A stretch of DNA of 28,991 nucleotides from positions 1 through 28,991 of the IMG/VR virus record IMGVR_UViG_3300044825_002687; one strand, given 5' to 3'. Below are positions 1,302-27,862 of this stretch, piece after piece (the stretch's first letter is position 1; every line of letters begins with the position of its first letter). The stretch is from a virus. The notes beneath the pieces are model-generated. The model saw nothing but the letters and a program-made list of their open reading frames with translations. It ran no database searches and was not told the origin of the DNA. Position numbers and translations under genes: made by a program.

Positions 1302-2075
1302 TTATTTTTTCTTTTGGCTCAATGCCTCACGAAGAAACTCGTACTTGGCGTCCAAAATGTTTTCTTTTCCGAATGTCTTTTTGACTACAGGTTTTTCGTA
1401 TGCTGGAGATTTCTTGAACTCTTGGTAATCTTCCTTCATTTCCTCAAACTCTTTGGTGAATTTCTCCATCATTTCGAGCATTGAACCTAATGCCATTTTG
1501 ACATCATCCATATTCTTTTTATAGTTCTCAAGAGAACCTTCCCCCTCTTCATCGGGGTACTTTACTCCAGTGATTTTACCTTCACCATCAACGGTGAGTG
1601 TAATACCGGACTCAGTGGTGTGCTCTCCTGCGGGAGCTTTTACTTTTTCACCACTTTCAGTTTCAACATAAAGCTCTTGACCAACCTCGAAGTCTCCTTC
1701 GCTTTCAGTCATAACTTTTGTTCCATCGGTTAAAGTTGCTTTTGACATAACTTCAGTTTCAACCTCAATTTCGCGCTCTGCGTTTTGGATACGCTCTTCT
1801 TCGGAAGATTCTGGTTTATCTTCAATTTTGATAATTTTACCACTTTCATCAACCTCAAGAATAAGACCTTCACGAGTTTCGTGTCTTCCGACCGGTGCCG
1901 GTTTAAGGACAGACTCATCTACGATGAATAAATCCTCCCCGATACTGAATGGTCCCTCCTGATTGTTTGTAATTTCAGTCGTACCATCTATCAATTTGGT
2001 GATAAAAAACTTTTCCGATTTGAACTTCATTCCCAGTAAATCAGCGATTTTACTGAGGGCTTCGCTTGCGTTCAT
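1302..2075 (-). CDS. Scaffold-like capsid assembly protein with two tandem repeats
   Basis: A 257-residue, very acidic protein just upstream of the major capsid gene. It holds two copies of a ~62-residue beta-rich unit at about residues 24-86 and 111-173. Both follow the pattern L-x-DGT ... EGxFxxGxxLxV ... APxGxHxTxxGxxLxVDxxGKI. A Glu/Lys-rich linker separates them. Residues 181-225 are a predicted coiled coil rich in Met, Glu and Lys, followed by a basic tail ending in KKK. Acidic charge, coiled coil and position between protease and capsid fit a scaffold that guides procapsid assembly. The repeats could instead be capsid-binding or decoration domains. The start overlaps the end of the protease gene by 4 nt, so translation is probably coupled. 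Confidence 0.65.
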   Translation of the reverse strand: MNASEALSKIADLLGMKFKSEKFFITKLIDGTTEITNNQEGPFSIGEDLFIVDESVLKPAPVGRHETREGLILEVDESGKIIKIEDKPESSEEERIQNAEREIEVETEVMSKATLTDGTKVMTESEGDFEVGQELYVETESGEKVKAPAGEHTTESGITLTVDGEGKITGVKYPDEEGEGSLENYKKNMDDVKMALGSMLEMMEKFTKEFEEMKEDYQEFKKSPAYEKPVVKKTFGKENILDAKYEFLREALSQKKK

Positions 2076-10655: not shown

Positions 10656-12191
10656 TTAACAAGGTCCTCCGATATTACAAACGAGCGTGACACCTGAACC
10701 ACTTGAATTATAAATTGAGCCACCCGAACTGAAATCACCGGTATATGGATTCGTTAAACCGGCATTATCAAAGATTTCTGTGAATGGGTCGGTTAAGTTT
10801 GTGACGTAGCAATTTGTATAAACTGTAATACTCGAACCACCTTCACAAGCACAAATACCACCCGAACAAGCCCCAGCACAATCTGTTATATTCCAAGATT
10901 TATAACAATCAGGGGTAATGGTAGGCGTAGGCGTTTGCGTTGGAGTGGCTCCCGCCGGAGTTGAGGTTGGGCTCGGAGTAGGCGTTGGCGTCACAATACA
11001 AGACCCGATGTCAATGACATCTAAATCTAAACCTGTTGGAACATTACAACTACAAACTACATAAATGACCGTTGGTAGGGGTTTAAAGTTTTGTGCCGCA
11101 CCGGTAATACAATTTGTAAAGTATGCCGTTCCAAATTCACTTAAACCGGTATATTCTATTGTATATTCTCTACAACTACCACAAGCGGGACTTGGCGTTG
11201 GTGTTGGGGTCAAAGTTGTTACTGGCGTTGAGGTATTCGTGGGCGTGGGTGTTGGGCTGGCTTCTATAGGAGTGGTAGCCCCCTCAAAAACCCCGAAAAG
11301 TTGAACGGTGTATTGTGCCGTATTTGGTGGCAACATCGGTATATTCGCCGGTCCTGCTCCTACATAAAGCGTGTTATAGGTTGTTGAAGACCAAGGAAAA
11401 ACATTGTAAAGTGCCGGATAAACATCACATCCACTCGTTCTGGGTCCCCCACCGTTGGAAACTATATTGTCGAATTGAACTGACCCAAGTGATTGTCCAT
11501 CTCCATCAAAGAAATTGTACTGGACATAGTAAGGCTCGGATAAAATTGTTGGTGTTGAACCGGAGTTAAGGTAATAATTTGTGAATGCTAAAACAAAATA
11601 GTCCTCCTCCGTGACGTCCATTATTCTTGGCGCATTTGTGAGAAAAAGTCCTGATGTGGTTGGGTAAATACTTAAAGGGGTTCCTGAAAGTACAAATGGC
11701 GATATATTGAAATCCTGTTGTGTTGCTCTACCATTCGTACCCATTGTCGAACGGAAGACCTTCAATATCTCTGTTTGATAAGTCGGGTTTCCCACAACCG
11801 TTCCTATTCCTGTGAATCCCGTGATGGGGCTTGTTTCACTATCTGCGTATTCGTATCCGACCTTCAAATAGTAATTTATAGTTTCAAGGTTCAGAGGTCT
11901 ACTAAATGGGAAAGTTTGGTGAGTGTAAATGGGTGTCGTATCCCAGTAAGATAAGGGTAAAGAAGTGGTATAGGACTCAAGGACTTGTTGTAGGTCTGCA
12001 ATTCCCAAACCAAATGGGTTAGGGGAACATTTCCCTTCAAAGACGAATGTGTCATCAACAAAAAGTTGGTATTTGTATCGAAACTTGAAAGTCGTGGAAA
12101 CGTCATAGGTTGCGGATGAAAATGTAAAATAAATCCCGTCGGATAAAACAGGTTGAAACTCTGCGGGTGATGCGGCTATTCCTATACTCAT
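10656..12191 (-). CDS. Tail protein with Pro/Thr linkers and Cys-rich end modules
   Basis: A 511-residue protein. Residues 1-309 look like a folded beta-rich tail protein (MSIGIAASPAEFQPVLSDGI ... YTVQLFGVF). A Pro/Thr linker at 312-336 (SPTPTPTNTSTPVTT...) follows. Next come a small Cys-containing domain (337-399), a second linker at 400-427 (TPTPTPSPTSTPAGATPTQT...), and an end module (429-511) with clustered Cys (CAGACSGGICAC) and EIFDNAGLTNPYTGDFSSGG. The end module resembles the C-terminus of the 578-aa protein at 26126-27862. The linkers probably hold the modules off the tail surface, where they may bind host glycans or form stabilising disulfides. The start overlaps the upstream stop by 4 nt. 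Its exact tail role is not known. Confidence 0.6.
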   Translation of the reverse strand: MSIGIAASPAEFQPVLSDGIYFTFSSATYDVSTTFKFRYKYQLFVDDTFVFEGKCSPNPFGLGIADLQQVLESYTTSLPLSYWDTTPIYTHQTFPFSRPLNLETINYYLKVGYEYADSETSPITGFTGIGTVVGNPTYQTEILKVFRSTMGTNGRATQQDFNISPFVLSGTPLSIYPTTSGLFLTNAPRIMDVTEEDYFVLAFTNYYLNSGSTPTILSEPYYVQYNFFDGDGQSLGSVQFDNIVSNGGGPRTSGCDVYPALYNVFPWSSTTYNTLYVGAGPANIPMLPPNTAQYTVQLFGVFEGATTPIEASPTPTPTNTSTPVTTLTPTPTPSPACGSCREYTIEYTGLSEFGTAYFTNCITGAAQNFKPLPTVIYVVCSCNVPTGLDLDVIDIGSCIVTPTPTPSPTSTPAGATPTQTPTPTITPDCYKSWNITDCAGACSGGICACEGGSSITVYTNCYVTNLTDPFTEIFDNAGLTNPYTGDFSSGGSIYNSSGSGVTLVCNIGGPC

Positions 12192-12763
12192 TGTCTTTGA
12201 ATGCTTGTAGTCATAATTATTCCTTCTCTAATAGCATTCCGAAAATATTCAGATGCCCAGTCTCCTATTTGTATTTGTAGTTTCTTTTCTGTTTTTTTCA
12301 AGGTTTCGTTAATAAAATCTATTCCATAAACTCCGTATAAACCGATTGACCTCTGAAGAAGGAATGCTCGGGTGTCTTCGTCCATTATTTCTCCGTTTTC
12401 ATCTGTGAATGGTAAAATACCCTTCAATTTAGTCCAATTCTTAATAACGTCGAGTGGGGGATATTTCAACGCCGAACTTTGTTTTTTACCCCTACGTCCA
12501 TAATTTACCCAGTACCACTCGGGAGCATTTGGAAACGAGACTTGTATCTTTGGGTCTTGTCCTTCAGGTTGTATCCACTGAACGTTTATATTCTTGAATA
12601 AATTACCCGTAGTATTTCTATTTCCGTAAGATGGTGGATATTTTTTGCTAACGGGTTTCACCGTTCCATCGTAGGCACGGGAAGCTCTACGGACGAGTAA
12701 TTCTTGTTGAATACCAATCTTTAGTGTTTGGGTAATAAACTCCTGTAAATCTTTCTCCTCCAT
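12188..12763 (-). CDS. Head-tail joining / neck protein (HK97 gp10-like)
   Basis: A 191-residue protein if translation begins at the ATG at 12763, which overlaps the upstream stop as TAATG. An in-frame ATG at 12775 would add MLLL, but this lies in the TTG repeat at the end of the upstream gene and is less likely. The middle reads EWYWVNYGRRGKK...KYPPLDVIKNWTKLKGI. This fits the pattern of HK97 gp10-type neck proteins, where an aromatic/Gly-Arg stretch is followed by PP-x-x-x-I-x-x-W-x-x-x-KGI. Such proteins join the head connector to the tail. Its position after TerL and the tail terminator agrees. There are no membrane segments. Confidence 0.55.
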   Translation of the reverse strand: MEEKDLQEFITQTLKIGIQQELLVRRASRAYDGTVKPVSKKYPPSYGNRNTTGNLFKNINVQWIQPEGQDPKIQVSFPNAPEWYWVNYGRRGKKQSSALKYPPLDVIKNWTKLKGILPFTDENGEIMDEDTRAFLLQRSIGLYGVYGIDFINETLKKTEKKLQIQIGDWASEYFRNAIREGIIMTTSIQRQ

Positions 12764-14121
12764 TAACAACAACAACTAACAGGGAGGGAAGTTCCACAAC
12801 TTCCAGTTATAGTATCATCTTCGGGTGCGGAACCCACCCCTGTAATCTTCCACGCACAATTAGCACTTACCAAAGTTGAAACGTTCACATATACCCCTGT
12901 TGACAAAAGCGTATTTGACTTCGCAACATAACTTGTACCACTTACACTACCGGTGGCGCAGTTAGTTACCGCTTGAATGGTATAATAATAACTTTGGGAA
13001 GATTGACTTGGAGTGGGAGTGGGAGAATTACTTGGTGGAATTGAATCAGCACAAAGTCCAACAACACTTCCCAAATAACCACCATCACCACTTATAGTCA
13101 ATGAAGTAAATGGCGTTGGAGCATTTATATTAAATTTTCCGTAGGCGGTGGCTGAAATTGAGCCACAGCATCCAATTCCTGCGGAAATAGTGTTTCCTGT
13201 GAAGTTAGTATAACAAGAATTACCTTGTAAGGTTAAAGTTGGGTTGCCAGTATTAGTTGTAATGGTATAAAACTCTTCGTTTACCCCACCTACACAACCA
13301 CCACCATAGAATACCAAATCAATATTATTAACGGGACTTGAGAAATTCAAGGTATAGGTGAAAGGATAGATAGGTGATGGGCAAGGTGCGACACCTCCAT
13401 TACCTAAATAAATCCCCCCCGATGGTGGGAATACGCTTCCGTTACAACAAATTGGTGGCGAAAAAATATAGGGTGTTGCTGCGCCCGTATAACTTTCCGT
13501 TATTGTTATTCCATTTATTGTACTTGGGAATGTGGCAAAACTTGTACAAGGGCTAAATAGTGGAATTGTGGGTGTGATAGTGGGTGTTATACTTGGAGTA
13601 GGCGTAGGCGTCAAATTTGGAGTTGCCGTAACCGTTGATGTTGGGGTAACGGTTGGGTAGTAATCACAAGCATTCAAGTCCTCAAAGACAATCAAATTAC
13701 AATCCAAGGCAACACCGGCGACGTGGTCTCCAAATCTCTCGAAGAAAGGGATTGCTGAAGTTGGTAAATTGATGTCTATATTGTTGTAGAGTTCGGGAAA
13801 TGTGTGAAGTCCCCTTTTCAAATAGGATAAAAATCTTCGTGCTTCCAAACTCATATCGGAAACACAATCTTTCTCGTTGGAAAGGTCATAATTTAAGATG
13901 TCCGCAAATATAAATGTCAGTTGGTACGTCGTGGTATTATCATCATAAAGAATGCTTTGTGGAACACAGAAAAGAAATGGATATTCCACCGTTCCACCTG
14001 AAATGTGGAGTTGCCCAAAATCAACCAAATTGCCGTAGGCAAAGGTATTCAAAATTGGACTTTGAACCTGAAATTGCTCAATAAGATAAAGCAATTTATT
14101 AAATGTAGTATATTCGCTCAT
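12763..14121 (-). CDS. Tail-terminator-like protein with appended Pro/Thr-linked Cys-rich modules
   Basis: A 452-residue protein. Residues 1-155 look like the small tail terminator/completion proteins found beside neck genes: an N-terminal helix (FNKLLYLIEQF), a beta core (LTFIFADIL...) and an acidic end (DLNACDYYP) where such proteins normally stop. It then runs into a Pro/Thr linker at 156-187 (TPTPTPSITPTITPTIP) and a Cys- and Gly-rich beta domain (190-360) with CC pairs. A short second linker (about 365-378) and an end module finishing SCCC complete it. The appended 300 residues are probably displayed outside the virion. The start ATG overlaps the stop of the -1 frame upstream (ATGA), which supports that frame being real. 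Confidence 0.55.
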   Translation of the reverse strand: MSEYTTFNKLLYLIEQFQVQSPILNTFAYGNLVDFGQLHISGGTVEYPFLFCVPQSILYDDNTTTYQLTFIFADILNYDLSNEKDCVSDMSLEARRFLSYLKRGLHTFPELYNNIDINLPTSAIPFFERFGDHVAGVALDCNLIVFEDLNACDYYPTVTPTSTVTATPNLTPTPTPSITPTITPTIPLFSPCTSFATFPSTINGITITESYTGAATPYIFSPPICCNGSVFPPSGGIYLGNGGVAPCPSPIYPFTYTLNFSSPVNNIDLVFYGGGCVGGVNEEFYTITTNTGNPTLTLQGNSCYTNFTGNTISAGIGCCGSISATAYGKFNINAPTPFTSLTISGDGGYLGSVVGLCADSIPPSNSPTPTPSQSSQSYYYTIQAVTNCATGSVSGTSYVAKSNTLLSTGVYVNVSTLVSANCAWKITGVGSAPEDDTITGSCGTSLPVSCCC

Positions 14122-14459: not shown

Positions 14460-14929
14460 TTTTCTTTGAAAAGTTCCGCACGCGCTACCATTGTGCTTCC
14501 GTCATAGGGTTCCAACTCGTAATGTGTACCATTCATAATTTTAACCGGTCTGTATAGAAGTGCCATAAGATAATGAATGTTGTCTGTCAATTTATCGGGT
14601 TGTCCGAATACTTCCATATCTACCCATTGTCCCCAAGTCATATTTCCCCACTCATTTTCAATTCCGTAGGTAGTTTCACCTATTTTGAAGGTAAAAGTAA
14701 TTTCATCGGTGTTTGGTTCGAGAATGGTACTTGAAAGGAAACCCTCCACAACCTTTATCTGCTCAACGGGTAGACCTCGTAGTTCATCTTTGGTAATACC
14801 CAAGTAAAGTGCCAACAATTCTGTTTTGTCTTGGTATTTATTTGGGTTTTTCTGTAGGGATTGATATTTCCCTATTGTTAGTTCAGGGGAAACTTCAATG
14901 GGCTTACCATCTAAAATTACTTGTATCAT
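14231..14929 (-). CDS. Probable tail assembly chaperone, zero-frame product
   Basis: A 232-residue zero-frame product starting 4 nt inside the end of the TerL gene (ATGA overlap). Residues 1-168 look well formed: IQVILDGKPIEVSPELTIGKYQSL, a helical part (LLALYLGITKDEL), and MTWGQWVDMEVF...HYLMALLYRPV...ELEPYDG. After FFF at 169-171 the sequence becomes Lys/Arg/Thr-rich (TISKEYTTHLEN...), which looks like off-frame reading. A gene before the tape measure with a short product and a -1 shifted longer product is the hallmark of tail assembly chaperones (lambda G/GT type). I infer that role from arrangement rather than sequence similarity. Confidence 0.55.
   Translation of the reverse strand: MIQVILDGKPIEVSPELTIGKYQSLQKNPNKYQDKTELLALYLGITKDELRGLPVEQIKVVEGFLSSTILEPNTDEITFTFKIGETTYGIENEWGNMTWGQWVDMEVFGQPDKLTDNIHYLMALLYRPVKIMNGTHYELEPYDGSTMVARAELFKEKCPISFWFGASRFFFTISKEYTTHLENSLRWTTKMIKISQPILKILPKYLRVRALRAFTSTLPSDLQTGILRSFPN
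14417..14425 (-). promoter_or_regulatory. T9 slippery run, candidate -1 frameshift site
   Basis: On the minus strand the sequence is CGG TTT TTT TTT ACA in the zero frame. Slipping back one base gives TTT TTT TAC AAT, entering the extension frame. The run satisfies the X-XXY-YYZ rule for -1 slippage, and nine identical bases can also cause polymerase slippage. I did not find a clear downstream stem-loop by eye. Confidence 0.55.
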
Positions 14930-16080
14930 CTAATAACGAATTTTGGTTTTTTATTTCCTATAGTACTTTCCAAAATATAACGAATAGCATCTATAGTGTG
15001 ATTGTGGTCGTCTTCGGGGGCATCCAACAAGTCCCCGTTTTTATCGGTCTTCCATTTATAACTTTGGAACTCAAATAGAATATTTTTACTTTGTTCCGTA
15101 ATGTAAATATGATGACGACGAATAAGGTCTATTCCGTGAAGAATTGATTTTTTATTTACTGGCTTTGCGTTGAACTTTGCTCTACGCAATTCTTCTATAT
15201 TTTGTGGTGAGGCACTATCACACCAAATATGGTCTGTTTTTTCTATACCAAGTTCCTCCATTTTGTGAATGATGTCCACCATTGTCAAATTGCGAACATA
15301 GAGTAATTCGTGGAAAAAAAGTTGGTCGTCCATTTGATAAACCTCTATCAAAGTGGTTGGGTTGTTGAAACCCATATCCATTCCCCTACCTAATAATTTT
15401 GCTTCAGGGGGGACGTGTTGAATTGTGGTGAATTTGTTGAACACCAAAGTCATAGGTATTCCTCGTTCACCGAGATTGTAAATCCTATACAGGTTTTCGT
15501 CCTTTTCCTTGAGACTTTCCAACTCTGCTACAATACTATCCGCCACAAATGGATTATCTCGCCAGGTCGTCTTAAAATAGTATGTATCTTCACGCTTTTC
15601 AAGGTCATAAACCCAACTCGAAAGTTCAGAGGGGTTTAAGTCAAGAATGACCTTATCGGTGGTACGAAAAATAAGTTGGTTCCAATCTTCAAGAGTCAAT
15701 TCATTCGCCTCGTTACAATACAGATAATCTCGTTTCGAACCACGCAGTTTTTGTGGCTCGTCTACACTGAACCAATTTATAATATTCCCATTTAGTTCAT
15801 AGTACCCCTCTTGTTTGTGCCACTTTCGTTCATCGAATATGTTGAAAAGTTCAAGTATTTCCCGTAAATCCTTCAACACGGAGTTTTTCATTGCCGGTAA
15901 TGTTTTACGAACTATTGAAAGTGTTTTACCCTTTTCAAGAAGTAATTTATAAATCCAGTAAATAAGAATATTGTAGGTCTTGCCCGAACGGGAACCTCCT
16001 TGAGCCACAACCAAACGTTTACCGAGTTCGTCAGACTTGAGAATATTTTCAAATACTAAAGTGGTAGATATTGTTTTCAT
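14926..16080 (-). CDS. terL: Terminase large subunit (packaging ATPase-nuclease)
   Basis: A 384-residue DNA-packaging motor with an N-terminal ATPase and a C-terminal RNase H-like nuclease that cuts concatemers. Walker A is GGSRSGKT at 28-35. The Walker B/catalytic Glu is in LYCNEAN, near residue 124. Candidate nuclease metal ligands are Asp235 (GMDMGFNNP), Asp288 (WCDSASP) and Asp358 (EDDHNHTIDAIRY). The pattern fits the Terminase_3/PBSX XtmB-like family and its usual length of about 400. It overlaps the TerS gene upstream and the chaperone gene downstream by 4 nt each, so these are probably translated together. No insertion or intein is seen. Confidence 0.95.
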   Translation of the reverse strand: MKTISTTLVFENILKSDELGKRLVVAQGGSRSGKTYNILIYWIYKLLLEKGKTLSIVRKTLPAMKNSVLKDLREILELFNIFDERKWHKQEGYYELNGNIINWFSVDEPQKLRGSKRDYLYCNEANELTLEDWNQLIFRTTDKVILDLNPSELSSWVYDLEKREDTYYFKTTWRDNPFVADSIVAELESLKEKDENLYRIYNLGERGIPMTLVFNKFTTIQHVPPEAKLLGRGMDMGFNNPTTLIEVYQMDDQLFFHELLYVRNLTMVDIIHKMEELGIEKTDHIWCDSASPQNIEELRRAKFNAKPVNKKSILHGIDLIRRHHIYITEQSKNILFEFQSYKWKTDKNGDLLDAPEDDHNHTIDAIRYILESTIGNKKPKFVIR

Positions 16081-16340
16081 TTATATCCCCTCTTTTGACC
16101 TTTGGTTTTCAGGTAAAATTGTATTGCCGATAAATCCCCATTATTTATTAGGTTGAGCAATCTATTTTCAACATAGTCAAGCGACATTTCGTTTATACGA
16201 TTTATCTGTTCGACGAATAGTTTGTTCTTCCCCCATTCTTCGTATTCATCACGGGAAATACCGGTTTTCTGTAGTGCCACAGAAATTATTCCCAACGACC
16301 TACCTAATTCCTCAATAAAAAGTTCCTGTCTCTCATTCAT
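16077..16340 (-). CDS. terS: Terminase small subunit
   Basis: An 87-residue helical protein that starts 8 nt inside the end of the dioxygenase gene and overlaps terL by 4 nt. The pattern FIEELGRSLGIISVALQKTG followed by ISRDEYEEWG is an N-terminal helix-turn-helix. LDYVENRLLNLINNGDLSAI and FYLKTKGQKRGY form the oligomerisation part and basic C-terminus seen in many small terminases. It would bind the packaging start site and load TerL. The length is at the short end for the family. A second TerS-like gene lies at 20031-20441, so this phage may use two DNA-recognition subunits, or one of them may serve another role. Confidence 0.8.
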   Translation of the reverse strand: MNERQELFIEELGRSLGIISVALQKTGISRDEYEEWGKNKLFVEQINRINEMSLDYVENRLLNLINNGDLSAIQFYLKTKGQKRGYK

Positions 16341-17235
16341 TTACACGACTTTCTTTGAACTTATTTATTTCTTTTTTTGATAGTTTTTCAAGTTCCATTC
16401 CCCTACGCTTCAATTCTTCGAGATGCTCTACATCTAACATTTTCTTTTCACGCTCGGTTTTAATGTTCCGTATTCTAATCAACTCCTCATCTATTTCCTC
16501 GCACTTCCACAATTGCTCCAAAGAATAATAAACCACGGAGTATCTGTACCCTTCAGGGTCGTCATAGTGGATTTCGCTTACTCCGTGAAGAATATCTTGT
16601 CCGTTGAAAATGGTGAGAGTATTGTCTGCCACTTCCAAAGCAATATCCAAACTTGGGATACATAAATGCCCACCTGAAACCCCCTTTTTGAAAACAATCA
16701 TATTACTCAAAACACCCTTGAAATTACCTGCGTCGAAATGGTAATTCAACCGGTTATTTTTATTCACAATACCACTCGTGAAAGGTGTATTTTCTATTTG
16801 GTAATCTTCCAACACTTTTTCTTTTACCAAGTTTGCGTGTTTCTCGTAGGTTTCAGGAAAATATGTTTTATAGAATTGCTCTATTTCCTTGATAAAGTTC
16901 GTTAAGACGTAGTGTTGTTTTGGGTATTTCTTTGCCATTTCACTCAAACGACAATAGTCCGCAGTAATGGGGTTTCTCGGGTAGTATCCGAAAACGTTTG
17001 CTTGTTGTTGTAAACCACGAGTTCTTTTTGATTTGGGGTACTTTTGATTTTTCACAGCCCACCTTACCGCAGAGGTGTTTACGTCTTTTAGTGATGCGTA
17101 TAAAACAACCGGTTCATCATTTACGTAAATTATAGTATCTTCCTTTATAATGGTCGTTACATCGGAAATAAATGCCGTTGCCTTCTTGTATTTTTCAAGG
17201 TCAAATTCTTTGAATTGTAGGTCTAATCTTTTCAT
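16333..17235 (-). CDS. TET/JBP-family 2-oxoglutarate/Fe(II) dioxygenase
   Basis: A 300-residue protein with the core motifs of the Tet_JBP oxygenases, which hydroxylate the 5-methyl group of thymine or 5-methylcytosine in DNA. Iron ligands are His166 and Asp168 (NYHFDAGN) and His217 (NGQDILHGV). Arg231 (YRYSVVYYS) is the predicted 2-oxoglutarate anchor. The distances (H-x-D, then 49 residues to His, then 14 to Arg) are close to those I recall for JBP1 and TET2. SGGHLCIPSLDIAL between the ligands and GLQQQANVFGYYPRN (74-88) also match the family. The C-terminal 60 residues are charged helices of unknown role. It lies between a glycosyltransferase and terS. No methyltransferase is present nearby. 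A protein hydroxylase is the main alternative; prolyl hydroxylases normally use Lys about 10 residues after the last His, which is not seen. Confidence 0.85.
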   Translation of the reverse strand: MKRLDLQFKEFDLEKYKKATAFISDVTTIIKEDTIIYVNDEPVVLYASLKDVNTSAVRWAVKNQKYPKSKRTRGLQQQANVFGYYPRNPITADYCRLSEMAKKYPKQHYVLTNFIKEIEQFYKTYFPETYEKHANLVKEKVLEDYQIENTPFTSGIVNKNNRLNYHFDAGNFKGVLSNMIVFKKGVSGGHLCIPSLDIALEVADNTLTIFNGQDILHGVSEIHYDDPEGYRYSVVYYSLEQLWKCEEIDEELIRIRNIKTEREKKMLDVEHLEELKRRGMELEKLSKKEINKFKESRVNE

Positions 17236-17247
17236 ATCTATAAATAT

Positions 17248-17997
17248 TTAATCGGGTAATTTTATTTTTACCACCGATTTATTCATCTTCAATTCGGTAT
17301 ATTCACTTTTACGACCTTCATTTATGGAAAAAATGTTGGGATACATTTCAACCAATTTATTTGAAGCCACAAATTCCATATCTGACCTTTGTTGTTTCTC
17401 CGTCTGCATCCCCCCTTTAGTTTTATAATTGTTTGTTTTACAGGACAAAAAATTAAAACGAGCAACTCGTCCATAAACTTTGTGGAAAAGAATACTTCGT
17501 TCATAGTCATTCTTTGTTTCAAGAATACAATTTAAGTTTTCTGTTTTTTTTGATATAAACCCGAACATATTTGCCACCAAATAGGTCAGTCCCACTTCAA
17601 TATCTTTTTTCATAAAGAATAAATTACTTGAAGGGTAAATCCCCCACGCTTCTATTTTGTGTTTGCCACAGAAATTAAAAATATACCACAAAACGTTTGA
17701 TAAATGCCGTTCGTAAAGGTCTTGTACTTCCTTTACGTCGTCTTCCAAAACAACTACCCATTCCCCTTCACTGAAGTAATTCTGTACGAAGTTGAACTTC
17801 TCTTTCACCGACTTTGTATTTGTCAAAACCAAATTATACTCGGGGTATAGTTCCTCGTACAATTTGTAGTCCTCGTCATCGCTAATGAAAAGGTAGATAT
17901 TTTCTTTGTCGAAATCCTTTAGGGTATTCAAAGTCAAATTACCGATAATATCACTTCTTCGGTGGGTTGGTATAGCAAACTTATATTTCATCGGCAA
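17248..17997 (-). CDS. GT-A glycosyltransferase, probably TET-associated type
   Basis: A 249-residue protein starting with FAIPTHRR (7-14), the usual first strand and loop of a GT-A glycosyltransferase. ENIYLFISDDEDY (32-44) and VVVLEDDV (81-88), a DxD-like metal/nucleotide-sugar site, follow. The C-terminal half has DYERSILFHKVYGRVARF (164-181) and YKTKGGMQ (191-198), which resemble the acceptor-side motifs of TAGT enzymes encoded beside phage TET/JBP oxygenases. It would transfer a sugar onto a hydroxymethylated base. It lies directly before the dioxygenase gene (12-nt gap) and overlaps the HAD-kinase gene by 17 nt. There are no membrane segments, which argues against lipid-linked cell-wall work. 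Acceptor and sugar cannot be read from sequence. Confidence 0.75.
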   Translation of the reverse strand: MPMKYKFAIPTHRRSDIIGNLTLNTLKDFDKENIYLFISDDEDYKLYEELYPEYNLVLTNTKSVKEKFNFVQNYFSEGEWVVVLEDDVKEVQDLYERHLSNVLWYIFNFCGKHKIEAWGIYPSSNLFFMKKDIEVGLTYLVANMFGFISKKTENLNCILETKNDYERSILFHKVYGRVARFNFLSCKTNNYKTKGGMQTEKQQRSDMEFVASNKLVEMYPNIFSINEGRKSEYTELKMNKSVVKIKLPD

Positions 17998-18922
17998 TGT
18001 TGTTTATAATACTTGTGTATTCGGGTTTATATTTTGATACTCTCAACCCCTCTGCTACGGCAAAGTGTTTCACAAGTTCCCCGAATGCCTCTACGAGCAT
18101 TTGAGCACCAAAGTGGTCTTGGTTGTAAGCGATAAGTGAAAAATATGTTTTACCCGCATCGGTCAAATACGAGCCGAAAACATTTTTGTAGTTGGGGTCT
18201 ATCAACCAAGTACGCTCATTTTTCAAGACGTTTGTTGTTGAGAGGTCTCCGTGAAAGAAAGTACCTGGATGGTTAGGCAAAGTACTAATCAATTCTCGTA
18301 CCTTTTGGGTGTTTTTCGGATGTACTACCAATCTGTCAAGATACGTTTGAAACGGGTAATTTGGTATTTGTTCGTGCCTGAACTCTTCAATTAGATTGAT
18401 GTAGTCAATCACTCGTGGTTTCATACTCTCACTAATGCGTTCAGTGATTATTGTTTCATCATTTACAAACAAAACTTCAGGAACGTTAAAACCTCTCAAC
18501 CTCGCAATGTCATACCATTTTTTCTCGAATATAGAGGACTTCGACTTCTTGATGACTGAACCATTCGTAAAAAGTATTTTGTTGTCTGTAAAAGGAGATA
18601 AATGGGGTATAAACTCATCATTCGGTCGGATGGTCATATCGTCAATGTAGAGGTCTCCATATTCTTTGTTGAAACTTATCTCATCGAAGGGGACTTGGTA
18701 GGTTTCCAAAAATTGTTTTATCAAAGCATAATATTTGCGTTCCTTTTCCCCCACGCTCAAATTAGACTTAGCGCCCCGTGCGGTACAGACCACAATATAA
18801 CACTCGTACTCTTGTTTCAATCTTTTCAACCTTTCAATCAACGCATAATTGGGTTCAGCCGAGGTTATGTATCCGGTTAAACCCCCAGCCAAAGTTCCAT
18901 CAAAATCAACAACTATTCTCAT
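17981..18922 (-). CDS. HAD phosphatase fused to APH/choline-kinase-like phosphotransferase
   Basis: A 313-residue two-domain enzyme. Residues 1-105 form a small HAD domain with DFDGT (6-10), TAR (47-49), Lys86 or a nearby Lys, and IDD (93-95), as in capsule-locus HAD phosphatases. Residues 115-310 look like an aminoglycoside phosphotransferase/choline kinase fold: an N-lobe with Lys125/126 (GSVIKKSKSS), the catalytic loop HGDLSTTNVL (224-233) with Asp226 and Asn231, and the metal-binding LIDPN (240-244). The pair could phosphorylate a small molecule or a glycan and remove phosphate from another intermediate. HAD-kinase fusions next to nucleotidyltransferases occur in bacterial capsule loci, recalling LicA/LicC-type phosphocholine pathways. 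Inside a phage packaging operon this is unusual. It overlaps both neighbours (4 and 17 nt). Confidence 0.75.
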   Translation of the reverse strand: MRIVVDFDGTLAGGLTGYITSAEPNYALIERLKRLKQEYECYIVVCTARGAKSNLSVGEKERKYYALIKQFLETYQVPFDEISFNKEYGDLYIDDMTIRPNDEFIPHLSPFTDNKILFTNGSVIKKSKSSIFEKKWYDIARLRGFNVPEVLFVNDETIITERISESMKPRVIDYINLIEEFRHEQIPNYPFQTYLDRLVVHPKNTQKVRELISTLPNHPGTFFHGDLSTTNVLKNERTWLIDPNYKNVFGSYLTDAGKTYFSLIAYNQDHFGAQMLVEAFGELVKHFAVAEGLRVSKYKPEYTSIINNIADEI

Positions 18923-19467
18923 ATCTCTTTTTTTATTGCTTCCAAATAATCTTCCCTGTCCCCCAAACGCACAAATGTATCTTCAAAATATACTTTTGGT
19001 TTATCCATTCCCGAGATTACGGAATTATCATCACTCATTCGTTCGAGGAGTTTTGAAACACTCTTGATGAAATAAGCACCTGATAATTTATTTTCCCAAG
19101 TGCTTTGTTTCTCGGTACTTTCAACCACCAAACCATTCTCAATCTTTACCGAACCGTATTTTTTTTTCGTTGAAGTGAAACAAACCACTTCATCGGTCTT
19201 GAATGAAAGCTCGGGCATTCCAAAAGGTATAATATCACAATCAAACAATAATACATTATTCCAACTGCGTATCTCGTTGAGAGTTTCCCTCCGACTTTTG
19301 GTTTTATTTACCCCGATTGTATAATGATTAGGGTATATTGTGCCTATCCAGTCAATTATCGTTTTATCCCAAAAGTAGAGGTTTTGTTTCTCAAGATTAC
19401 TCAAACACTTCAACCGACTACCACTACCTCCCACGCTAACGACAACGTTAATCTCGGTCATTTTCAA
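18919..19467 (-). CDS. Sugar/phosphoalcohol nucleotidyltransferase-like protein
   Basis: A 182-residue protein with the nucleotide-binding loop VSVGGSGSRL (10-19), a following Lys27 (NLEKQNLYFWDK), a metal-binding DCD (76-78, VLLFDCDIIPFG), SGAYFIK (129-135) and an end segment YFEDTFVRLGDREDYLEAI. These are, in order, the landmarks of NTP-transferase enzymes that join a sugar-phosphate or phosphocholine-like group to an NTP. It is shorter than the usual 220-260 residues, so the acceptor-binding part is reduced. The first loop has GGSGSRL in place of the common AGGxGTRL. It probably prepares an activated donor for the glycosyltransferase or for a phospho-group transfer. ATG 19467 gives MKMTEINV; the in-frame ATG at 19461 is an alternative start. 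Confidence 0.7.
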   Translation of the reverse strand: MKMTEINVVVSVGGSGSRLKCLSNLEKQNLYFWDKTIIDWIGTIYPNHYTIGVNKTKSRRETLNEIRSWNNVLLFDCDIIPFGMPELSFKTDEVVCFTSTKKKYGSVKIENGLVVESTEKQSTWENKLSGAYFIKSVSKLLERMSDDNSVISGMDKPKVYFEDTFVRLGDREDYLEAIKKEI

Positions 19468-20041
19468 GATAGTAATTCATTAGGAAGATAAACGCTTCGG
19501 TATTTGTCTTGAACCTTTTACCTTCCATAACTTGGTCTAATTTATTTATTGCCTCCTCGTATTCAGCCTGACTGAAAAACAGAGTGATTCTGCGTATTTG
19601 GGAGTCCAAATACTTTTCAAGTTTTCGACTTAAAACGTCCTCATCTATCTCGGGCTCCATTTCATCGTCCATTACCCACGCAGGTATTTCTAAACCCCAG
19701 TCCGATACTACAGAAACATCCCAACTCGTTGAGATGCTATCCCAATTCCATTCTCCATAGTTGACGTTGTCCTTCACTACGAACTCCCTCTTTTTTGCTT
19801 CGTCCAAGTTTGAGAAACGGATAATGGGAATGTCCTTGTATCCAAGTTCCTTTAGTGCTCGCAATCTCATATTTCCACCGATAACCACAAGGTTTTCATC
19901 TACCACCAAAGGACGAGCCTCTAACATTTCGGGGAACTCTTGAATTGATTTTTTCAATTTCTCAAGTTGGTCTCCTTTTATAACTCGGGGATTATCAGGA
20001 TTTGGTTTTATTGTTTCAATATTTACTACCTCAATTTTCAT
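19448..20041 (-). CDS. ParB-like N-terminal domain protein
   Basis: A 197-residue protein. Residues 5-75 are a ParB/Srx-type domain: IKPNPDNPR (11-19), LKKSIQEF (29-36) and VVIGGNMRLRALKELGY (52-68). The GGNMR motif corresponds to the nucleotide-binding GxxR box. Residues 90-125 (VNYGEWNWDSIS...WGLEIPAWV) match the extension common in phage ParB-like proteins encoded near DNA methylases. The rest is acidic and helical. No C-terminal ParB dimer domain is seen, so plasmid partition is unlikely. As the first gene of the modification cassette it could be a DNA-binding or NTP-hydrolysing accessory factor. It overlaps the TerS-like gene (11 nt) and the nucleotidyltransferase gene (20 nt). Confidence 0.8.
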   Translation of the reverse strand: MKIEVVNIETIKPNPDNPRVIKGDQLEKLKKSIQEFPEMLEARPLVVDENLVVIGGNMRLRALKELGYKDIPIIRFSNLDEAKKREFVVKDNVNYGEWNWDSISTSWDVSVVSDWGLEIPAWVMDDEMEPEIDEDVLSRKLEKYLDSQIRRITLFFSQAEYEEAINKLDQVMEGKRFKTNTEAFIFLMNYYLENDRD

Positions 20042-20441
20042 TTGGTCTTACAATTTCAATTTTTATAGGTTCAGCATTTATCTGTTCTCCTTGGCTCGTT
20101 ACGTCCAAACGAGTGCTTTCGCTCCAATTATCAGGGAACTTGTTGCGAACAATCAAACTCCATAGTCTCGAATTAAATCCCTGTCCTCCGTCCTTTTCCA
20201 TTGCTCTATGTGCTAAATTATACCAATAATTCTCACATAAAGTTCGGTATTCTTGAACGGCTCTGGAATATTCTGGGTTTCTTTTCATCATAGCGTAGTG
20301 CTGGTCCCAAGATAAACCCAAAGTCAAAAGGAACTCGGTAATGTGTTTTCCCTCTAAACCACTTTGAAGGATAATCTCCTTCCAAACGGGGTTCATATAG
20401 GTTTCTGTGCGGGGTCTACCCCTTTTTTTTGGTTCGTTCAT
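20031..20441 (-). CDS. Second terminase-small-subunit-like DNA-binding protein
   Basis: A 136-residue protein. The N-terminus KKRGRPR (5-11) is an AT-hook-like motif. A helical part with SWDQHYAMMKRNPEYSRAV (helix-turn-helix-like) follows, then NSRLWSLIVRNKFPDNWSES and a C-terminus with TSQGEQINAEPIKIEI. This C-terminal pattern occurs in small terminase or packaging proteins of several phage groups that I recall. It starts 1 nt after the MGCNC gene and overlaps the ParB-like gene by 11 nt. With the shorter TerS at 16077-16340, it brackets the modification cassette. It might be the true packaging-site binder, or a regulator that links DNA modification to packaging. Confidence 0.6.
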   Translation of the reverse strand: MNEPKKRGRPRTETYMNPVWKEIILQSGLEGKHITEFLLTLGLSWDQHYAMMKRNPEYSRAVQEYRTLCENYWYNLAHRAMEKDGGQGFNSRLWSLIVRNKFPDNWSESTRLDVTSQGEQINAEPIKIEIVRPNEN

Positions 20442-22406: not shown

Positions 22407-22447
22407 TCACAAAAGCCAAGAATACCCCAAAAAAAATTGATTAATTT

Positions 22448-22479
22448 TTTGTTTTTCTCGAATACTTTTTGTATTTTTG
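22448..22479 (+). promoter_or_regulatory. Bacteroidota-type promoter for the plus-strand island
   Basis: TTTG (22448-22451), a 20-nt spacer, then TATTTTTG (22472-22479) match the consensus TTTG-N17-23-TAnnTTTG fully. The predicted start point near 22485 leaves a very short leader before ATG 22491 or 22497. It rules out the earlier TTG at 22437 as the start of the first gene. Confidence 0.6.
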
Positions 22480-22496
22480 GTTATATTTATATGTAT

Positions 22497-22823
22497 ATGG
22501 GAACTTCAAAGTCTGAACAATATCTTAAACGCAGAATGTGGCGGGAAGATGGTCTATACTATTTTTGTAATCTTTGTGGAGATTATAAACTTGAAACAGA
22601 GTTTTACAAAAGTAAAAACACTCCCTTTGGTATTACCTATAAGTGTAAATTACACTACAAAAAGGACGACAATAGTACCAAAGAATTTGACCATCTGAAA
22701 TTATCCCCCATCACTGATGACGATTTTCTTGGGGCACAGATACTCTTGGAAAATCTCGGGTATAAGTTCGGAGCCGACCAACTTCCCGTATGGAAACAAT
22801 TTGAAATAAAACATAATCTCTAA
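22497..22823 (+). CDS. Small zinc-finger-like protein A
   Basis: A 108-residue protein starting MGTSKSEQYLKRR. The frame is open from a TTG at 22437, but the promoter at 22448-22479 lies inside that extension, so ATG 22497 (or 22491) is the likely start. A CNLCG motif and a downstream C-x-x-H (CKLHY) could form a Cys3His zinc site like those in phage zinc-ribbon or endonuclease VII-like proteins, but no nuclease residues are evident. The C-terminus (FLGAQILLENLGY...LPVWKQFEIKHNL) closely resembles that of the protein at 23255-23542, so the two are paralogues. It is the first gene of the plus-strand island and probably an early regulatory or host-takeover gene. Confidence 0.6.
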   Translation: MGTSKSEQYLKRRMWREDGLYYFCNLCGDYKLETEFYKSKNTPFGITYKCKLHYKKDDNSTKEFDHLKLSPITDDDFLGAQILLENLGYKFGADQLPVWKQFEIKHNL

Positions 22824-22835
22824 AACACAAACAAA

Positions 22836-23252
22836 ATGACTGGAGCACACAAATGCACCTACCGAGACGCACTTCATATAAAGTTGATGATTTCCGAAGG
22901 TCTAACCAATTCCGAAATACATAAAACATTTATTTCCGAAAAGGGTCACCAAATATCCCGAGCACATATTGATAAAATACGCAAGGGGCAAAGATGGAAC
23001 TCTAAAATCTATTCCTTCGTTCCAAAGGACGAATTGAAAAGTTTGAAAAAATTGACCACCAAAATTAACGATGGTTCAGTCTTTCATTCGGAGATAGGTA
23101 AGGTCATCACATATACCGACGAGAAGTGGATTTATCTTCATTTTAAGGACACTTTATTAGTAAGACAGGAAACCTACCTTATAAAAGATGAAAAGACGGC
23201 TGTGGACAATTTTGCAGAAGCACATCATCTTTTTGTAAGTCAGTATTTATAG
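22836..23252 (+). CDS. Helix-turn-helix DNA-binding protein
   Basis: A 138-residue protein. Residues 7-50 (YRDALHIKLMISEGLTNSEI...ISRAHIDKIRKGQRWN) form a typical helix-turn-helix: a helix, a turn after GLTNSEI, and a recognition helix starting ISRAHIDKI, followed by the basic KGQRW seen in phage and homing-endonuclease DNA-binding domains. Residues 55-138 are a mixed alpha/beta part with no known motif and no catalytic residues. It sits between two paralogous zinc-finger genes and is probably a repressor or activator. Its nearest non-coding target is the structured segment upstream. Confidence 0.6.
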   Translation: MTGAHKCTYRDALHIKLMISEGLTNSEIHKTFISEKGHQISRAHIDKIRKGQRWNSKIYSFVPKDELKSLKKLTTKINDGSVFHSEIGKVITYTDEKWIYLHFKDTLLVRQETYLIKDEKTAVDNFAEAHHLFVSQYL

Positions 23253-23254
23253 GA

Positions 23255-23542
23255 ATGAAACAGAAAAACTTGGAAATAGTTGATGGCGTTGAGTGGTGCC
23301 TTTGTAGTGCTTGTGGTACAAAGAAGATTTGTGAATTGAACTTTTACTACGACAAACGTCACAACTATTTTACGAATGTTTGTAGGCTCTGTATGAATGC
23401 TCAAAAGAGAGACAAAAATTATATTCCCAAATACCCGCCAGGGGATATACTTCAGTCGAAACAAGTTTTACGTTTAATTGGCTATGACCCTGATAGTAAA
23501 ATACCTGTTCACGAACAATTCAATCTAAAACACGACTTATGA
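23255..23542 (+). CDS. Small zinc-finger-like protein B (paralogue of A)
   Basis: A 95-residue protein with two CxxC pairs, CSACG (17-21) and CRLCM (43-47), an ordinary Cys4 zinc-ribbon pattern with YYDKRHNYF between them. The C-terminus (ILQSKQVLRLIGYDPDSKIPVHEQFNLKHDL, shown here only as pattern) aligns with protein A as xxLxxxGY...PVxxQFxxKHxL. It begins 2 nt after the HTH gene and overlaps the next gene as ATGA. Nucleic-acid or protein binding is inferred; no HNH or nuclease motif is complete. Confidence 0.6.
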   Translation: MKQKNLEIVDGVEWCLCSACGTKKICELNFYYDKRHNYFTNVCRLCMNAQKRDKNYIPKYPPGDILQSKQVLRLIGYDPDSKIPVHEQFNLKHDL

Positions 23543-23757
23543 CGGAGTTCGACAAAGACCTTCAATACATCACTCACATTTTCAACCGGTCTAACACAAT
23601 ATCGGAGTTAAATGAATTGAGAAGATTATTCAAACATTTCTTGGATAAGTGGTCTGTACGGCTTTCACCAACAGACCCAACATTCATAAAAATAAAACAA
23701 GACTGGGGTGAAAAAATAGAAGAAAAATACAAAAAAATCTCAAAATTGTATATTTAA
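23539..23757 (+). CDS. Small helical protein, unknown function
   Basis: A 72-residue, Lys/Glu-rich, helical protein (ISELNELRRLFKHFLDKWS, EEKYKKISKLYI) with no known family. Its ATG overlaps the stop of protein B by 4 nt, so translation is coupled and it is likely real. Confidence 0.5.
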   Translation: MTEFDKDLQYITHIFNRSNTISELNELRRLFKHFLDKWSVRLSPTDPTFIKIKQDWGEKIEEKYKKISKLYI

Positions 23758-26125: not shown

Positions 26126-27862
26126 TTAACAGAATGTAAATCCGGCACCCTGTGGTAGACCACCCACAATATACCAACGCGCCGTAGTACCGAGACCATT
26201 CATATCACTTGCGTAATAACCATCTCCCACAGGGGTAGTCATATTTATGTCCGAATAGACGTACTGCAATGTATCTAAACAAGCCCAACAATTAAAAGGA
26301 GCACAAGGAGCACAATTACCTAAATCATAGGCGTAAACATTAAATGTTGTACCGGTTAGGTTATTACAAGCATCAGTTCCAGTTGAACCTGAAGCCACAA
26401 CGAATGTTAAAATTGGAAATGATGTGGGGGTAGGCGTTGGCGTTGATGTTGGGGGTATTCCTGACGCACTTGGAGAGGGGCTATTGGTTGGTGTGATGGT
26501 GGGCGTTGGGGTCAAAGGTGGCACATAGCAATTTGAAGTTGAAAGTGGGTTTCCACTCATATCAATTTTTACTATTCCCATCGTTTGTTGTTCGTTAAAA
26601 CTTGTAAAATCACCCACAAAAACCATATCCCCGTTTGGTAATACCGCACCTATTTCAGCACTGTTATTGTCTTGGGTGAATGTATAATCAAACCCGTAAT
26701 TTACATTTGTTTGGCTTCCAAAGTTGGTATCAAAAACCCCTGTTTTACTTAAAGCAAAAATCTTTCCGTAAAAAGTTATTCCGTTAAAACTTTCATTCCC
26801 GGTATCAGTTGATTTTTGACACGTAATATAAAGATTGTTATTTGTGGGGTTCAACAAAATATTAACTTCGCCAATAGTACCTGTACTTGCCAAACCTGTA
26901 CCTATATTACTTGTAAATGTGGCATCTAATACCCCTGTGGTTGCGTCAATTTTAGCAACACGATTTATTGAAGTACCATTATAGGTTGTGAAAGTACCAA
27001 CGCAATAAATAAAACCACCATCATAAATTATGTCAGTCACAAGACCACTAAAGCCAGTTCCAACCCCAGTCATAAAAGTGGTATCAAGTGTTCCAAATTC
27101 ATTAATTTTGGCTACCCTGTTTGCAGAAACCCCTTTATAGGTGCCAAATTGACCCCCAACAAAATAGTTTCCACTACCATCTTGGGTCATACAAAAAACC
27201 TGTGTGTTGAATCCAGTACCCGCAGTGAAAGTGGTATCAACACTACCATCAGATAAAAACTTTCCTATTCTATTTGCTGGCGTTGTAACGAAACTACCAA
27301 CTACCATATAATAACTTTCATCAGGGGCAACTTCAATATCTGCAACGTTTCCGTTTATATTTGCTGAAAAAGAAGTATCCACACTTCCATCAGCAAAAAA
27401 CCTTAGCATTCTTGTATTATTTGACTGATAGATATAACTACCACCAACCAACAAAGTTCCCCCGCTTAAAGGTGCAAAGCATTGAACCCCCACACCCGGG
27501 TTTAAATTTGAAATACTTTGTTGAAAGAATGACCCCTCAGCGTTGCCTGTAGTTGAATTAACCTTAGCGATGAGTTTAAGTGGGTTTCCTTGATAAAACT
27601 GAAATGTTCCACCCACAAACAAGGAACCACCTGAATAAAGTACCGCAGCGGGTTTTGTGTCGAAACCTTGACCTACACAGAATAAACCAAGCGGAGTGGG
27701 TGAAGGGGTAAATGAAGGGGTGACCGGTATTTGCGTTGCACTTGGGGTGGGTGTAGGCGTTGGCGTTGCCCCACTTAAAAAATTGGAATAAATATCCAAA
27801 ATTGCCCTATTCTCCCCAAGATAGTTGGAGAATTGCTTATTCAAAAATACCCTATTACCCAC
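26126..27862 (-). CDS. Delta-60 beta-propeller protein with Pro/Thr linkers, probable tail adhesin
   Basis: A 578-residue protein. A short N-terminal anchor (1-31, FLNKQFSNYLGENRAILDIYS) is followed by a Pro/Thr linker (32-58). A propeller made of repeated DGSVDTSF-type units spans about 60-440, with clear copies at FFADGSVDTSFS, LSDGSVDTTFTAG, EFGTLDTTF, TTGVLDATFTS and TGVFDTNFG. These are the signature of delta-60 repeats. A second linker (about 447-482) leads to a Cys-rich end module (485-578, with CAPCAPFNCWAC and DINMTTPVGDGYY) related to the C-terminus of the 511-aa tail protein. A surface adhesin that binds host glycan or protein is likely. The anchor may attach it to the virion. Confidence 0.7.
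   Translation of the reverse strand: MGNRVFLNKQFSNYLGENRAILDIYSNFLSGATPTPTPTPSATQIPVTPSFTPSPTPLGLFCVGQGFDTKPAAVLYSGGSLFVGGTFQFYQGNPLKLIAKVNSTTGNAEGSFFQQSISNLNPGVGVQCFAPLSGGTLLVGGSYIYQSNNTRMLRFFADGSVDTSFSANINGNVADIEVAPDESYYMVVGSFVTTPANRIGKFLSDGSVDTTFTAGTGFNTQVFCMTQDGSGNYFVGGQFGTYKGVSANRVAKINEFGTLDTTFMTGVGTGFSGLVTDIIYDGGFIYCVGTFTTYNGTSINRVAKIDATTGVLDATFTSNIGTGLASTGTIGEVNILLNPTNNNLYITCQKSTDTGNESFNGITFYGKIFALSKTGVFDTNFGSQTNVNYGFDYTFTQDNNSAEIGAVLPNGDMVFVGDFTSFNEQQTMGIVKIDMSGNPLSTSNCYVPPLTPTPTITPTNSPSPSASGIPPTSTPTPTPTSFPILTFVVASGSTGTDACNNLTGTTFNVYAYDLGNCAPCAPFNCWACLDTLQYVYSDINMTTPVGDGYYASDMNGLGTTARWYIVGGLPQGAGFTFC

Follow-up and report, generated by a model that had tools for sequence, protein, structure and literature searches.

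The window analyzed here, IMG/VR record IMGVR_UViG_3300044825_002687, is a linear virus fragment of 28,991 nt that carries no completeness value. Its minus strand holds, in this order, genes for a ParB-domain protein, a nucleotidyltransferase-like protein (NTase), a HAD-kinase fusion, a TAGT-like glycosyltransferase, a TET/JBP dioxygenase, a terminase small subunit-like protein and the terminase large subunit (Table 1). The genes of this module overlap or stand no more than 12 bases apart. The modification genes are flanked by two terminase small subunit-like genes, the upstream one of which likewise neighbors ParB in L016, L017, L021, L022 and L031 (L-numbers label the viral contigs and loci compared with the window). 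The terminase large subunit is 37% identical to its relatives in Flavobacterium phages. Calling the ParB gene a DNA methyltransferase (phrog_498) was rejected, since that match covers the ParB part alone (profile positions 33 to 140 of 633).

Elsewhere in the window, structural ORFs contain Thr-Pro repeat linkers (TPTPTP), which account for the direct DNA repeats found there, and one of these ORFs also has a DUF5122 beta-propeller (93.2 bits). A small island of plus-strand genes interrupts the otherwise minus-strand window. Two similar small Cys-rich proteins in the island surround another small protein, and the island proteins scanned gave no Pfam match. A 932-aa ORF displayed a HAD-like stretch of motifs in mid-protein by eye; its Pfam match was DUF5824 alone.

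Table 1. Features of the window and the matches or motifs by which they were named
Feature	Position	Strand	Match, motif or remark
ORF of 932 aa	2072..4870	-	DUF5824
Structural ORF with TPTPTP linkers	10656..12191		
Structural ORF with TPTPTP linkers	12763..14121		
Terminase large subunit, constant downstream module boundary	14926..16080	-	PF04466, 82.9 bits
Terminase small subunit-like protein, downstream of TET	16077..16340	-	phrog_24579, 3.2e-5
TET/JBP 2-oxoglutarate/Fe(II) dioxygenase, 300 aa	16333..17235	-	PF12851, residues, AlphaFold
TAGT-like glycosyltransferase	17248..17991	-	PF20691 below cut-off; phrog_842; EDD motif
HAD phosphatase/kinase fusion	17981..18922	-	TIGR01689, Bud32, PDB 1xpj, hhalign
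Putative sugar-phosphate nucleotidyltransferase	18919..19461	-	GGSGSRLK and DCDIIPF motifs
ParB N-terminal domain protein, constant first module gene	19448..20041	-	PF02195, 31.8 bits (cut-off, 26.3)
Terminase small subunit-like protein, upstream of ParB	20031..20441	-	phrog_309, 1.1e-4
Small gene island	22437..23757	+	
Structural ORF with TPTPTP linkers	26126..27862		

The dioxygenase gene encodes a true TET/JBP-family enzyme. Its product scored 57.8 bits with PF12851 (Tet_JBP), where the cut-off is 34.9. The first-pass annotation had assigned His166, Asp168, His217 and Arg231 to the TET/JBP catalytic set, and these positions were confirmed: the metal and 2-oxoglutarate ligands lie in the motifs HFD (H166 and D168), LHGV (H217) and YRYS (R231) and are invariant in an alignment of 18 rows with identities down to 25%. 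Three further residues of this region are Asn171 (D+3, counted from Asp168), Tyr237 (R+6, counted from Arg231) and Leu239 (R+8). An AlphaFold model (mean pLDDT 90.8, pTM 0.82) resembled TET2 (4nm6; Z of 19.4 over 247 residues, rmsd 3.5) and NgTET1 (4lt5; Z of 19.1 over 221 residues, rmsd 3.5). The best solved folds were TET2, NgTET1, CMD1 and CcTet, with Z values from 16.4 to 19.4, and FTO scored lower, at 15.5. A phmmer comparison with PDB sequences returned nothing significant. The label "queuine tRNA-ribosyltransferase" (phrog_6059), carried by relatives, was discarded, as it seems to be a misannotation of TET.

The earlier view of the locus, as a TET/JBP gene with no methyltransferase nearby, was sound as far as it went but overlooked the glycosyltransferase, HAD-kinase, NTase-like and ParB neighbors. 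The glycosyltransferase (start at ATG 17991, preferred over TTG 17997) is named TAGT-like because its PF20691 score of 22.6 bits falls under the cut-off of 27.5; it also matched phrog_842 (9.4e-10). The cut-off is passed by the 57%-identical protein of L079 (35.0 bits) and the 55%-identical protein of L264 (30.2 bits). An acidic metal motif of the GT-A type, EDD, is conserved in all three, and by sequence the window enzyme is probably a GT-A glycosyltransferase. In PMC13216743, TAGTs are described as GT-A enzymes, and 288 of the 753 phage genomes with such transferases carried a TAGT with neither an alpha-GT nor a beta-GT.

The HAD-kinase fusion consists of a HAD phosphatase domain (residues ~1 to 105) and an APH/Bud32-like small-molecule kinase domain (~110 to 313). 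The latter contains HGDLSTTN and IDPNYK, which fit the HGDxxxxN/IDP signature of APH/Bud32-like kinases. The HAD domain matched TIGR01689 (EcbF-BcbF, capsule phosphatases) at 5.2e-12 and the kinase domain matched Bud32 at 1.6e-5, both under the curated cut-offs; in PDB, the HAD domain matched 1xpj (6.4e-9). Each half aligned with a separate protein, HAD or kinase, of Synechococcus phage S-CBWM1 with an hhalign probability of 95%.

The NTase-like gene (start at ATG 19461, preferred over TTG 19467) encodes a putative sugar-phosphate nucleotidyltransferase. Its motifs GGSGSRLK and DCDIIPF, presumably a nucleotidyltransferase signature, are conserved over eight sequences, and its relatives scored 17.9 bits with NTP_transferase (PF00483) and 14.8 bits with NTP_transf_3, both below cut-off. 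The window protein had no convincing match of its own in the profile libraries; searched singly, it returned no phage match, no relative among viral contigs and no solved structure, and hhalign produced no alignment with the S-CBWM1 NTase. Its predicted model was poor (pLDDT 54), and a fold search with that model found nothing.

Nine viral contigs keep the NTase-HAD-kinase-TAGT-TET set: the window, L079 and L264 to L270. The scan with the HAD-kinase yielded 14 loci, one being the L079 contig again. Seven (L264 to L270) have the order ParB-NTase-HAD-kinase-TAGT-TET, and the TET of L264 is 28% identical to that of the window. The others were L263, with an NTase-HAD-kinase pair, L271 to L273, with the HAD-kinase among polysaccharide-type genes, none of these four having a TET in the fetched stretch, and two weak loci. 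The window TAGT is 54 to 57% identical to the eight other cassette TAGTs and ~32% identical to the best non-cassette TAGT (28 other matches outside S-CBWM1). Since this closeness persists despite a TET identity of 28%, the glycosyltransferase follows the sugar genes rather than TET. The TET tree separated the window from L079, and an AU test rejected a clade of the two (p 0.0005, for a group picked after the tree was seen). L264 to L270 may be closely related among themselves and so count as one or two events. Because the cassette is conserved as a unit and has an unfused counterpart in S-CBWM1, we infer that it supplies a dedicated sugar donor. The cassette was not named in the literature searched, and we do not claim that it is unpublished.

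We considered the setting of the TET gene in 86 related viral contigs from two scans, whose TETs are ~48 to 64% identical to that of the window. ParB lies upstream of TET in 82 of the contigs and a terminase lies downstream, again in 82. The cargo between them is a single glycosyltransferase in 68 contigs, ADDT (amino acid:DNA transferase) with a kinase in 6, a family termed c38 in 5, a kinase alone in 2, a glycosyltransferase with a C5-methyltransferase in 2, and the full NTase-HAD-kinase-TAGT set (L079) and a GT-B-like gene in 1 each; the last contig is truncated and has no visible cargo. The cargo glycosyltransferases form two groups joined by single-linkage BLAST, and several scanned members fall below the Pfam TAGT cut-off or lack a match. 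ADDT exceeded the Pfam cut-off in L020 (60.2 bits), Prince and Tonitrus, and the ADDT of L031 was so labeled by clustering alone. The phages nearest to the window are L016, L021 and L022 by terminase large subunit (73 to 79%) and L031 and L016 by TET tree path. All four carry ADDT and/or a P-loop kinase in the slot, implying that the slot of the window was swapped within a narrow lineage. Genes for a base kinase and an amino acid transferase are absent from the slot of the window and present in L018 to L022 and L031.

The slot holds further gene combinations. In L031 (positions 1876-3933), where the TET is 62% identical, the genes between ParB and TET encode an ADDT-cluster protein, an FAD-dependent oxidoreductase (DAO, 26.8 bits, just under cut-off) and a P-loop kinase; these recall M6/ViI thymidine tailoring with TET in addition. 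In L018 to L022 (e.g., L020:3460-5398), a class II glutamine amidotransferase-like gene, ADDT and a kinase come after TET, with a GNAT gene in three of the five, and this set possibly makes an amidated amino acid base. The c38 protein (~297 aa), which is GT-B-like by eye and has no Pfam match, takes the place of the glycosyltransferase next to TET in L040 (1513-2418), L061, L062, L073 and L036. In the Arthrobacter phages Bolt007 (L100:5747-7077) and Altadena (L102:5699-7047), TET and then a glycosyltransferase are followed by an annotated glucosaminyl deacetylase, which suggests an amino sugar on DNA. A gene of an FkbM-type methyltransferase cluster adjoins TET in HTVC112P and MED4-117 (L030 and L094), where it possibly methylates the added group. 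Siphonobacter sp. BAB-5405 (L257, Bacteroidota) contains a probable prophage with ParB, a P-loop kinase, TET, a terminase small subunit-like gene and the large subunit, and could supply material for laboratory work.

From the observed gene content, conservation of the cassette, TET fold and catalytic set, and lack of a methyltransferase in most relatives, we infer each reaction and the identities of base and sugar. The module is probably a DNA base hypermodification operon set against the terminase genes, with glycosylated 5-hydroxymethyluracil as its product. TET would act on a pyrimidine already incorporated in DNA, most likely thymine, and oxidize its 5-methyl group to give a 5-hydroxymethyl base. 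The kinase domain would phosphorylate a sugar or a similar alcohol and the NTase would join the product to a nucleotide; the HAD domain would remove a phosphate en route or police an intermediate. The TAGT-like enzyme would transfer the dedicated sugar onto the hydroxymethyl group in DNA, and ParB possibly helps guide the enzymes to DNA or to packaging. The resulting glycoside would be base J's viral relative and would shield the DNA from host nucleases.

To our knowledge, the phage TETs with demonstrated activity are 5mC oxidases. A cytosine route would start from a C5-methyltransferase elsewhere in the genome or in the host, whose 5mC TET would oxidize to 5hmC for glycosylation by the TAGT; we regard this as a serious but rather unlikely alternative. 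In its favor, Burke et al. reportedly found in 2021 that phage TETs are active on 5mC. The first-pass claim that the window has no C5-methyltransferase was borne out by PF00145, by a profile of the small phage type (A3) and by a motif scan; the window being a genome fragment, which also favors the cytosine route, this lack within 28,991 nt does not prove absence from the whole genome. A thymidylate synthase-family gene (PF00303) was likewise not found in the window.

Against the cytosine route, PF00145 matched only 2 of the 86 related contigs (0/24, 1/50 and 1/12 in three batches) and 1 of 17 isolate genomes (0/6 and 1/11). The isolate was Methylophilales phage Melnitz-1 (187 bits), so the search can detect the gene in a TET phage. 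No PF00145 match was obtained in eight more contigs with the NTase-HAD-kinase pair, and PF00303 was missing from all 46 records searched, including the window and 14 isolates. In fourteen isolate records, PF00145, PF00303 and the small C5-methyltransferase are all three missing. The complete isolates with ADDT and kinase are Prince and Tonitrus by Pfam and AnarQue and LilMcDreamy by clustering. As these have neither PF00145 nor PF00303, thymine oxidation is the sole known route to a hydroxymethylpyrimidine left to them, unless the host methylates cytosines. A 5hmdU DNA kinase is described as acting on 5hmdU in DNA (PMC6449724 and PMC7653180). Kinase genes were nevertheless rejected as proof of thymine, since a P-loop kinase akin to those in the relatives of the window also belongs to the Melnitz-type cytosine cluster. 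PF00145 matched three TET-bearing bacterial genomes; in Siphonobacter sp. BAB-5405, the stretch with the sole match shares no 40-mer with the TET locus.

The two contigs with a match, L080 and L082, are near-identical and speak for cytosine: a small C5-methyltransferase occupies the cargo slot immediately behind a TET that is 52% identical to that of the window and shares its Asn and Leu. This methyltransferase scored 30.2 bits with PF00145 (cut-off, 22), and its GGNR, PPC and ENV motifs are invariant in 13 relatives. It may be a late addition or the mark of a true cytosine sub-branch. In L188, which entered via the methyltransferase query, a C5-methyltransferase lies 4.4 kb from TET. The small C5-methyltransferase mostly occurs without TET, which tells against the cytosine route; a TET was present in 2 of 79 further loci, one being the L082 contig again. 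The first-pass suggestion that thymine may be the substrate thus gains from the rarity of methyltransferases and from ADDT and kinase genes in the nearest phages and loses from L080 and L082. Thymine is favored as the TET substrate rather than demonstrated.

Position D+3 bears on the same question. In PMC11040006, Asn1387 of hTet2, Asp234 of NgTet1 and Asp350 of CMD1 hydrogen bond to N4 of 5mC, and His1904 of hTet2, His297 of NgTet1 and Arg393 of CcTet contact O2. By sequence alignment, the two positions correspond to N171 and L239 in the window TET. We surveyed D+3 in 185 loci, from which 5 incomplete rows were dropped, and found Asn in 108 and Asp in 72. A C5-methyltransferase was detected in the fetched stretch of 3 of the 108 Asn loci versus 58 of the 72 Asp loci, by a crude motif scan of short stretches from related rows. 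In Melnitz-type loci, the corresponding count was 62 of 72, a point for the cytosine route; that the window has Asn, not Asp, is a point against it. Twelve isolate records with Asn at this position, the TET residue that contacts base position 4, had no PF00145 match. The split fits a difference in base preference and does not prove it. Asn was rejected as proof of thymine, because hTet2 uses Asn on 5mC (PMC11040006) and because Asn coexists with a C5-methyltransferase in L080, L082 and L188. Asp was rejected as proof of cytosine, because P12024L, HTVC112P, Cr30 and DLP_6 have Asp and no PF00145 match.

A different reading of the glycosyltransferase, which we consider improbable, is that it attaches a second unit to a base that already bears a sugar or another modification, the first transferase being encoded elsewhere. 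The phrog_842 annotation points this way, as does PMC13216743, where the TAGT of T2/T6, the one TAGT with a role described in the literature consulted, puts a second glucose on a cytosine derivative, which also counts against thymine; on the other side, the single glycosyltransferase is the sole tailoring gene seen between ParB and terminase in 68 of the 86 contigs. The similar HAD-kinases without TET in L263 and L271 to L273 could suggest that the NTase, HAD-kinase and glycosyltransferase serve to modify a surface polysaccharide or a virion protein and adjoin TET by chance. We consider this very unlikely, given that the set lies between ParB and TET in nine contigs and beside TET in S-CBWM1 and that other contigs use the slot for DNA-tailoring genes, ADDT among them.

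The favored product, glycosylated 5-hydroxymethyluracil in DNA, has partial parallels in known systems. A five-gene thymidine hypermodification system with a tet-like protein is described for the Rhodococcus phage Tonitrus (PMC11955845), so thymine modification by way of TET is not a new idea for phages. Like the window, Tonitrus has ParB, a TET-like protein and tailoring genes followed by terminase, in a genome without PF00145 or PF00303; unlike the window, it tailors with ADDT (aGPT-Pplase2) and a kinase, lacks the sugar cassette and has a TET of 32% identity. S-CBWM1 places TET, TAGT, HAD, NTase and kinase functions side by side, and its whole genome matches neither PF00145 nor PF00303. It differs in its separate HAD and kinase genes, low identities (TAGT, 22%; TET, 26%), size of 139 kb and lack of an adjacent annotated ParB.

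Nonlabens phage P12024L, with a complete genome free of PF00145, shares the succession of TET and TAGT (76.3 bits) but has Asp at D+3, no NTase or HAD-kinase seen and an N6/N4-type methylase after TET-TAGT (L026:18039-18674). A relative of that methylase lies just upstream of ParB-TAGT-TET in L083. The Melnitz-1 type also has a TET-type enzyme in a phage modification cluster, whereas the adjacent M.HhaI-like gene (the 187-bit match) and Asp at D+3 set it apart. Thymidine hypermodification of the M6/ViI/phiW-14 type differs in using a thymidylate synthase-family hydroxymethylase, a base kinase and an amino acid transferase. Base J of kinetoplastids (JBP1/2 and JGT; PMC11065753) resembles the window in the proposed logic alone, oxidation of thymine in DNA and then glycosylation; that pathway is eukaryotic and, in the same source, uses UDP-glucose as donor.

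We tentatively propose that the locus makes a viral analogue of base J, in which TET acts on thymine with no premodified nucleotide or methyltransferase, a transferable cassette adds a dedicated and possibly non-glucose sugar, and the ParB-TET-terminase chassis swaps its modules. TET-based thymine modification in phages having been proposed already, we would call the joining of a sugar-activation cassette to that route the new part. S-CBWM1, Tonitrus, Prince and P12024L are named, testable genomes among the relatives, and a search for further DNA-tailoring enzymes, such as the c38 family, could usefully start with the interchangeable slot that ParB and terminase enclose. The cassette predicts a sugar on DNA that is activated by virus-encoded enzymes. 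A phage TET acting on thymine, if true, would give JBP1/2 a counterpart among viruses and would bear on the origin of base J.
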